From NCBI RefSeq assembly GCF_003967195.1, contig NZ_AP018725.1, positions 2,662,001 through 2,726,000 on the forward strand: 64,000 nucleotides of DNA, read 5' to 3'. The stretch is from Sulfuriflexus mobilis. GTDB lineage: Bacteria; Pseudomonadota; Gammaproteobacteria; AKS1. A program made the translations under genes and the position numbers. The notes under the pieces are model-generated. The model was not told the origin of the DNA and did no database searches. It was given only the letters and a program-made list of their open reading frames with translations. Positions 33,879-35,768 of the stretch are shown here, piece after piece; position 1 is the first letter of the stretch; the number at the start of each line of letters is the position of its first letter.

Positions 33879-34112
33879 TTCTTGGCTAATAAGGGTGGCC
33901 GAAGACCCTGAAAAATGAGGACGGGAAAATGATAACGGCTCAGGGAAAGCCTGGGCAGTCCATTAAAGAAGAAGGGAGCGACCAGGCGGTGCGGTAACAC
34001 CACCCAGCCCCCAACCACAGTGTACAAGCCACTGTGAGCCAGGCAAGGCTCCCCCGCCGCACGTGCAGCATGGGTGAGCCTACCATAACCACAATAAGAA
34101 CCAGAGGCTCAC
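33879..34112 (+). ncRNA. Candidate structured RNA leader upstream of dam
   Basis: 234-nt gene-free leader with many stems: AGGGT/ACCCT (33892-33909), GCTCAGG/CCTGGGC (33938-33956), GGTG/CACC (33988-34001), CACAGTG/CACTGTG (34016-34036), a closing GGCGG/CCGCC (33985-34058), and GTGAGCCT/AGGCTCAC (34074-34112). The last stem buries the ribosome site directly before the dam ATG. A second GTGAGCC (34034-34040) and a second GGCTC (34047-34051) could compete for the same partners, a switch-like layout. No known RNA family was recognised. Confidence 0.55.
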
Positions 34113-34877
34113 ATGACTGCTAAACCATTAATTCCTTGGATAGGTGGCAAAACCAGACTTGCGGACAAAATACTGCCGCTATTCCCGGCCCACACCTGCT
34201 ACGTTGAACCGTTCGCAGGGGCAGCCGGATTGCTCTTTAAAAAAGAACCCAGCAAGGTCGAAGTGCTGAACGACATCAACGGTGACCTGGTCAACCTGTA
34301 CCGGGTTGTCCAGCACCACCTGGTCGAATTCCTGAAGTGCTTCGAGTATGCCGTTGTCGGTCGCCAGATGTTCGAGTGGGAGCAGATGAAGAACCCGGAA
34401 ACGCTCACCGACATCCAGCGGGCCGCCCGCTTCTTCTACCTGCAGAAACTGGCCTTCGGTGCCAGGGTGGAATCGCAGCACTACGGCGTTGACCCTACAG
34501 GCCCGCCAAGACTTAATCTGCGCCGTATCGAGGAGGCACTGACCGCCTCGCACCTGCGCATCTCCCGTGTCCATGTCGAGCATCTGGACTGGCAGGAATG
34601 CATCCGACGCTACGACCGCAAGCACACCCTGTTCTACCTCGATCCACCGTACTGGCAGACCGAGGGCTACGGAGTGGAATTCGGCCTCGAGCAGTACGAG
34701 CAGATGGCCGACCTGGCCGCCAGCATCAAGGGCAAGATGGTGGTCAGCGTCAACGATCACAAGGACATGCGCCGTGTGTTCAAGGGGCTTCGCATCAAGA
34801 CCGTGCCGATCACCTACACCGTGGGTGGCAAACAGGGCAGGAACGAGAAGAAGGAGCTAATTATCAGGTCGTGGTAG
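34113..34877 (+). CDS. dam: DNA adenine methylase (Dam-type)
   Basis: 254 residues: SAM-binding PWIGGKTRLADKILPLFP and YVEPFAGAAGLLFKKEP, and catalytic motif YLDPPYWQTEGYG. This is a D12-class N6-adenine methylase. It occupies the mom position at the right end of Mu and likely protects phage DNA from restriction or alters regulation. Its start codon abuts a stem that could hide the ribosome site. Confidence 0.9.
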   Translation: MTAKPLIPWIGGKTRLADKILPLFPAHTCYVEPFAGAAGLLFKKEPSKVEVLNDINGDLVNLYRVVQHHLVEFLKCFEYAVVGRQMFEWEQMKNPETLTDIQRAARFFYLQKLAFGARVESQHYGVDPTGPPRLNLRRIEEALTASHLRISRVHVEHLDWQECIRRYDRKHTLFYLDPPYWQTEGYGVEFGLEQYEQMADLAASIKGKMVVSVNDHKDMRRVFKGLRIKTVPITYTVGGKQGRNEKKELIIRSW

Positions 34878-34910
34878 ACTATGATGAAATATATACCGTC
34901 AGGGGATGTT

Positions 34911-35768
34911 ATGAGAGTCTTTATAAGCTGGTCTGGAGAGGCTTCAAAAATTGCAGCAATGGCACTGCGCGACCATCTTCCCGAGATCATCCAAGCATTA
35001 AGGCCTTGGTGCTCTACTGAGGATATTGATTCAGGTACCGTCTGGAATGCTGAACTTATTAAGGCGCTTAATGAATCGGTTTTTGGTATTATTTGTGTGA
35101 CCCATCATAACCAAAATCGACCGTGGCTGATGTATGAATCGGGAGCGTTGGCTCATAAATTAGACCCTGAAAATACGATTAATAATGTCTGTCCGTTATT
35201 AATTGGCATGGAGAACATAGACCTCAATAAGGTTTTGGGTGCGTTTCAATCGAAGACAACCAAGAAAGAGGAAGTATATAGGCTTGTTGTTGATATAAAT
35301 AAAAAGCTGAATTCTTCTGATCGGCTCAGAGAGGGCGTGTTAGAAAGGTCGTTTGAACGTGTATGGCCTGACCTCAATGCGAAGCTCGGCGAGGCAACTA
35401 AGCTTGCCAAAGAAGAGCCTGACCAACCCAAGCAGTTAACAACCCCGGACATGCTATCCCGTATAATGGGTCAAAATAGCCTCATACATGATCTCGCTAT
35501 CAGAATCCTTGCCGAGAACCAGCTTCATCAGAACGATATCCTGAATAATCTCGGAATCAATAAGCAAGCTCTTCAGTATTTGCAATTGGCCGGGGCGATT
35601 ACTCCACCCCCAGAACTCAGTCAATTTGGTCTTTCCCGCCCGTCAAGGGCACAAAATGACAACATCATGGCCCCGGGGGGGTTGAGTGAATTGGGTTCCC
35701 GCTTTCCTGGAACAGAGGCAGATGTATCAAAACCAAAAGACGATGATAGCCCAGGCAGTTCTAATTAA
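34911..35768 (+). CDS. TIR-domain protein
   Basis: 285 residues from the ATG at 34911, which has AGGGG upstream (an ATG at 34881 is less well supported). The TIR domain spans about 1-140: MRVFISWSGEASKIA, LRPWCSTEDIDSG, and PWLMYESGAL with Glu76 as likely NADase residue. A helical middle and a disordered acidic tail follow. Bacterial TIR proteins often deplete NAD in antiphage defence. The gene is AT-richer than neighbours and is the last phage gene, so it is a likely accessory gene. Confidence 0.75.
   Translation: MRVFISWSGEASKIAAMALRDHLPEIIQALRPWCSTEDIDSGTVWNAELIKALNESVFGIICVTHHNQNRPWLMYESGALAHKLDPENTINNVCPLLIGMENIDLNKVLGAFQSKTTKKEEVYRLVVDINKKLNSSDRLREGVLERSFERVWPDLNAKLGEATKLAKEEPDQPKQLTTPDMLSRIMGQNSLIHDLAIRILAENQLHQNDILNNLGINKQALQYLQLAGAITPPPELSQFGLSRPSRAQNDNIMAPGGLSELGSRFPGTEADVSKPKDDDSPGSSN

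Follow-up and report, generated by a model that had tools for sequence, protein, structure and literature searches.

Phage DNA modification has to come late and in the right amount, and the best-studied control of this kind is that of com-mom in Mu. The Mu-like prophage found in the stretch of Sulfuriflexus mobilis DNA analysed here (64,000 nt, hereafter the window) raises the question of whether, and on which strand, RNA controls another modification gene, dam. Its tail region runs through baseplate, gp48-like and tail-fibre genes into a non-coding gap (33879-34112), which is followed by dam (Table 1). An initial annotation had described this gap as a single sense leader of at least six stems over 234 nt that hides the dam ribosome-binding site (RBS) and works as a switch. 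That observation is real in part, and its reading was half right.

The inverted repeats it reported are indeed in the sequence: GTGAGCCT (34074-34081) is perfectly complementary to AGGCTCAC (34105-34112), so that the final stem abuts the dam ATG at 34113, and a further copy, TGTGAGCC, lies at 34033-34040, with GGCTC at 34047-34051. As plus-strand RNA, the complete leader is only marginally more stable than shuffled sequence (z -1.93).

Table 1 Features of the dam leader and of the predicted antisense RNA, in window positions
Feature	Positions	Strand	Remarks
Non-coding gap	33879-34112		Between the tail genes and dam; Mu-like prophage tail region upstream
U-rich 3' tail	33960-33973	-	Terminator-like; A-rich on the plus strand
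Structured small RNA (predicted)	33963-34071	-	About 108 nt; antisense to the dam leader, read right to left; R2 match 33963-34086, 84.9 bits
P1	33972-34055	-	Long-range helix closing the three-way junction; GGGAGC (33974-33979) with GCTCCC (34048-34053), as written on the plus strand
P2	33980-34009	-	13-bp hairpin, UUAC loop; mismatched on the plus strand; covariation
P3a/P3b	34010-34043	-	Hairpin arm of the junction; CACAGTG (34016-34022) with CACTGTG (34030-34036), as written on the plus strand
Anti-RBS, TGTGAGCC	34033-34040	+	8 pairs to the RBS strand; p 0.005 against the phylogenetic null; plus-strand G.U signature
P4	34056-34069	-	5' hairpin; self-complementary centre GCACGTGC (34059-34066); stem covariation; proposed dimerisation loop
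P5, 5' strand, GTGAGCCT	34074-34081	+	Alternative partner of the RBS strand, the final stem of the initial annotation; p 0.015; overlaps the minus-strand -10
Extended -10 promoter element	34077-34085	-	TGGTAGGCT on the minus strand; family pattern TGnTAGGCT; just upstream of the small RNA
RBS strand, GAGGCTCAC	34104-34112	+	Directly before the dam start codon; pairs with the anti-RBS or P5
dam	34113-34877	+	D12-class N6-adenine DNA methyltransferase, 254 aa; preceded by the element; PF02086 3.8e-23, PHROG 56 1.3e-87

Distribution of the element

The leader DNA, used as a direct similarity query, found no matches in phage, plasmid or E. coli collections, and its relatives were therefore reached through dam. 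Homologues of dam were fetched from IMG/VR and GTDB genomes, and the element was then located by profile search. About 155 nt of the leader (33963-34115) are conserved upstream of phage dam genes, and a covariance model, R1, recognised this element in 138 of about 160 homologous loci. The conserved stretch ends at the start codon of dam, or at that of a small com gene preceding dam, and it covers the 3' two thirds of the leader; conservation is lacking in the 5' third, from 33879 to about 33960.

The element was found in the named phages B3, VP882, KS9, phiHAP-1, MuM16-1, Bise, KP12, PhiKM, AM106, TJ1, Mae-JY22 and Komp_PAO1_1, as well as in 552 of 5,426 complete E. coli genomes (about 10%). 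In two E. coli copies (L334, 1494-1650, and L335, 1500-1656), dam is truncated or deleted and the P4 palindrome or the RBS strand is mutated, which is anecdotal. Mu itself lacks the element (best score 3.9 bits). The Rfam scan that the initial annotation had proposed matched no family to the leader: in Rfam 15, the window, loci L058 and L130 and a set of 20 loci gave nothing at the gathering threshold, apart from tRNAs at other places in these loci. Searches of the open-access literature did not turn up this RNA either. As far as tested, the family, its gene partners and its conserved self-complementary loop are thus new, while antisense control as a kind is known.

Strand and structure of the conserved RNA

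Among 100 non-redundant members, the helices P1-P4 covary strongly, with 87% of cells paired and 28 of 34 pairs changed on both sides. The null was phylogenetic, the same number of changes being redistributed over the tree in 400 simulations, and the covariation of P1-P4 exceeded all of them; that of the helices involving the RBS is weaker yet significant. The covariation in homologous phages that had been named as a check is therefore present, far above a phylogeny-aware expectation.

The wobble pairs tell on which strand this structure lies. Read as plus strand, P1-P4 contain 256 A.C mismatches against 36 G.U pairs, G.U occurring at 0.07-0.32 of expectation and A.C at 0.38-0.83. Read as minus strand, 93.8% of cells are standard pairs (75% as plus), 27 of 34 pairs show double changes, G.U outnumbers A.C by 317 to 25, and a further helix, P3b, emerges. 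Counted by sequence, the wobble pattern votes minus in 84 cases and plus in three. Moreover, the minus-strand fold is the more stable one in 99 of the 100 members, by a mean of 15 kcal/mol, and the window's own segment reaches -59.0 kcal/mol (z -4.86) on the minus strand, against a z of -1.64 on the plus strand. Judged by its pairing pattern, the covarying P1-P4 structure is that of the minus strand.

This assignment changes the reading of the leader. A sense-strand riboswitch fold (model R1) as the main structure was dropped after the wobble analysis, and since P1-P4 are minus-strand helices no conserved sense aptamer is left. The window's P2, which had been considered a decayed copy, is intact, because its A.C mismatches on the plus strand become G.U pairs on the minus strand. 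Of the proposed six-stem sense leader, conserved covarying helices remain, although the 5' third is not conserved and P1-P4 lie on the other strand; nor is a single structured sense leader acting as a switch supported. Most of the covariation belongs to an RNA of the antisense strand, whose two ends resemble a promoter and a terminator.

The small RNA is predicted to start near 34070 and to end in the U-rich tract. From 5' to 3' it would comprise P4, a three-way junction formed by P1, P3 and P2, and the U-rich tail, which contains a mean of 5.1 U in 10 nt (47 members) and gives a terminator-like match in L130. At its other end, the extended -10 is highly conserved among the 100 members (T-12 95%, A-11 99%, T-7 99%, TG 59/84%), and -35-like hexamers at a distance of 16-17 nt are enriched, 59% scoring over 2 bits against 29% in shuffled sequence. 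The window's own -35 is weak and a simple rule-based scan of the window found no promoter at the element, so the promoter assigned to the window rests on the family pattern.

A promoter at this place could act by itself. Mu mom has divergent promoters, momP1 and momP2 (PMC4287176), and with this precedent the minus-strand extended -10 between element and gene could be a momP2-like promoter that competes with, or is occluded by, sense transcription, its RNA product being secondary. We give this transcriptional interference little credence, as it is the structure of the RNA product that is strongly conserved, and not the promoter alone.

The 5' hairpin carries the most unusual feature of the family. 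Self-complementarity of the P4 loop is found in 90 of 100 members, whereas the phylogenetic null predicts 8.9 (maximum 22), and it persists over 21 different hexamers at the centre and no fewer than 46 changes from one palindromic state to another. In a set of 145 members, a 4-nt palindrome occupies the midpoint of the P4 loop in 136, compared with 22 for the P2 loop and 26 for the P3 loop. What P4 conserves is therefore self-complementarity and not sequence. Evolution seldom leaves such a signature of RNA homodimers, and it lends itself to direct testing. As the bases in the middle of such a loop have no partner in their own molecule, they are most naturally read as joining two copies, and the loop points to homodimerisation. 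Among known systems, loops of the HIV-1 dimerisation initiation site type come closest in this respect. P4 resembles the loops of that site in that self-complementarity is kept as the sequence changes; it differs in that most P4 loops are palindromic tetraloops on extendable stems, and in that their dimerisation is a prediction.

Two other explanations of the palindrome were rejected. As a methylase recognition site it should not persist next to C5 methyltransferase and ATPase-GNAT partners, and several loops contain no adenine; as a DNA-level operator it should not have a stem with RNA-type strand asymmetry. A tentative reading, possible rather than probable, is that this is a new and widespread class of phage RNA acting as a dimer: two copies would pair through the palindromic 5' loop, and the antisense RNA would sense its own concentration, gate several unrelated phage DNA-modification enzymes and limit modification to late infection.

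Pairing of the RBS and proposed regulation

In contrast to P1-P4, the helix between the RBS strand and the anti-RBS has a plus-strand character. Its wobble pairs favour that strand (70 G.U, 23 A.C), and its pairing, found in 92.7% of cells, falls to 11-49% when the strands are slid against each other, which makes it a true sense mRNA helix. Because it covaries, sequestration of the RBS has real support, and so does the claim of a dam RBS that can be hidden. Mutually exclusive pairings are likewise supported: the RBS strand, predicted to be paired in 96 of 100 members, has two partners, P5 and the anti-RBS, both of which covary on the plus strand, P5 modestly and the anti-RBS slightly better. 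In the window's predicted ensemble P5 is favoured over the anti-RBS helix. The 5' strand of P5 overlaps the minus-strand -10, however, so that part of its conservation may be promoter conservation; it may even be due largely to the extended -10.

The com-first loci L344, L347 and L173 (phage B3) differ here. The strand at their start codon, GGTGTTGCC, matches GGCAACACC on the 5' side of P3 as its complement, where other members use the 3' side, which looks like a rewiring of the RBS pairing.

These helices would also suit a sense-strand switch in which a ligand, a protein or temperature shifts the balance between P5 and the anti-RBS helix; the plus-strand wobble pattern of the RBS-strand helices and the frequent pairing of the RBS strand agree with it. 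With P1-P4 on the minus strand there is no conserved sense aptamer to read such a signal, and P5 coincides with the minus-strand -10, which makes a switch of this type quite improbable.

We lean towards a cis-antisense regulatory module, in which an antisense RNA and a self-sequestering mRNA leader would together time DNA modification. A sigma70-like promoter of constitutive type, between the element and dam, would drive the structured RNA leftwards, antisense to the 5' leader of a dam mRNA read through from the upstream late (tail) genes. In this mRNA the RBS would pair with the anti-RBS, causing poor translation, and the antisense RNA would anneal to the same leader, anti-RBS included. Antisense RNA and leader would thereby prevent expression of the modification gene in the lysogen and at early times, until late transcription overwhelms or occludes the antisense RNA and the gene is released.

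Comparison of the sequences shows the strand, the structure, the promoter-like and terminator-like ends, the self-complementary loop, the RBS pairing and a strict linkage to modification genes; from these we infer expression, annealing and dimerisation of the small RNA, and the sign of control. Repression is a first guess for this sign. The predicted small RNA stops about 40 nt short of the dam start codon and, unlike SymR, would leave the RBS uncovered. By annealing to the leader it would open this site and not block it, so control may have either sign: capture of the anti-RBS by the antisense RNA may open the RBS, or annealing could instead destroy the mRNA. Against such a module it can also be said that the strong internal structure and the self-complementary loop exceed what simple antisense pairing needs.

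Several known systems share parts of this arrangement. As in the type I antitoxins SymR (RF01809) and PtaRNA1 (RF01811), a leftward RNA, here predicted, would overlap the 5' leader of its neighbour, and as in type I antitoxin loci this leader has a hidden RBS. Full-length matches to both families were obtained on the minus strand only, at 20.5 bits for SymR (window) and 24.3 bits for PtaRNA1 (L130), far below the gathering thresholds of 61 and 47 and hence a weak resemblance to be taken as a lead only. In place of a small toxin, the partner here is a modification gene, in the window that of the D12 methyltransferase of 254 aa; further differences are that the predicted small RNA does not reach the RBS and that its 5' loop is self-complementary.

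Another parallel is EcoRI Rna0, an 88-nt antisense RNA controlling the EcoRI methylase promoter (PMC3874152). Like this RNA and the reverse promoters of restriction-modification systems, the element would place a small antisense RNA with a putative control function next to a DNA methyltransferase gene, whereas Rna0 arises inside the endonuclease gene. To our knowledge, Rna0 has neither a conserved multi-helix fold nor a phage-wide family.

Linkage to DNA-modification genes

Two scans that did not start from dam, covering overlapping samples of 369 and 399 genomes, revealed 25 new places of the element outside the window, nearly all before dam or com-dam. The exceptions were L165, where it precedes a ParB-like N4/N6 methyltransferase gene, one copy at a contig end and one truncated copy. 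A further 67 members came from pattern scans of viral contigs. Of these, 60 have dam; among the other seven, two precede com and a C5 cytosine methyltransferase gene, three precede com and an ATPase-GNAT gene (one cut by the contig end), and two are truncated. The partner enzymes thus span families, from D12 dam and com-dam to the ParB-like N4/N6 methyltransferase, com with C5 methyltransferase and com with ATPase-GNAT. R2, a model confined to the small RNA and omitting the RBS, returned the same places and one degraded copy. Copies without an adjoining modification gene are truncated, at contig ends or degraded.

Partners from different families, an elaborate fold that covaries and a 5' loop that stays self-complementary while its sequence changes many times could also be explained by a structured RNA acting in trans, for example one binding a host or phage protein or an anti-defence RNA. 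It would accompany modification genes since RNA and enzyme alike protect phage DNA, and its overlap with the dam leader would be a matter of packing. We consider this unlikely, as intact copies always immediately precede the first modification gene, in antisense orientation to it, and part of the sense RBS helix is formed by bases that lie within the RNA gene. The cis-antisense module, if correct, would mean that many phages share an uncatalogued RNA control of methylases and related enzymes.

Mu com-mom is itself a phage DNA-modification gene under translational control, through the TIS hairpin and Com (PMC6483171). The present loci share with it a phage modification gene, putative translational control, a predicted divergent promoter and, in the minority of relatives where it lies between element and enzyme, com. 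They differ in that Mu lacks this RNA and in that the window has no com ORF between the element and dam. The Mu-mom-like RNA control of a methylase evoked in the initial annotation is therefore partly supported: a conserved element is tied to the methylase, and in relatives its place beside the element is taken by genes of com/mom type, which is consistent with RNA-level control, but Mu does not carry the element.

Binding of Com was rejected as a general function. Its SELEX motif, CC(N)2-3GAG, resembles CCUGUGAG in the P3 of many members; the CCUGCAAG class breaks this motif, and most loci have no com.

Further genes adjoin the element in individual loci. In Shewanella phage MuM16-1 (L177, 3931-4107) a C4 zinc-ribbon gene, possibly com-like, lies downstream and not upstream of dam. 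In Pseudomonas phage Komp_PAO1_1 (L329, 2501-4230) the element is followed by a small ORF, in the slot that com fills in relatives, and by an ATPase-GNAT gene (PHROG 11143) and a formyltransferase-like gene, a candidate pair for an unusual DNA-modification pathway. Pseudomonas phage Bise (L175, 1555-2586) carries a reverse transcriptase gene immediately before the element and dam. The window has a TIR-domain protein gene (34881-35768; PF13676, PHROG 13899) 3 nt past dam, possibly a defence gene in the same late cassette.
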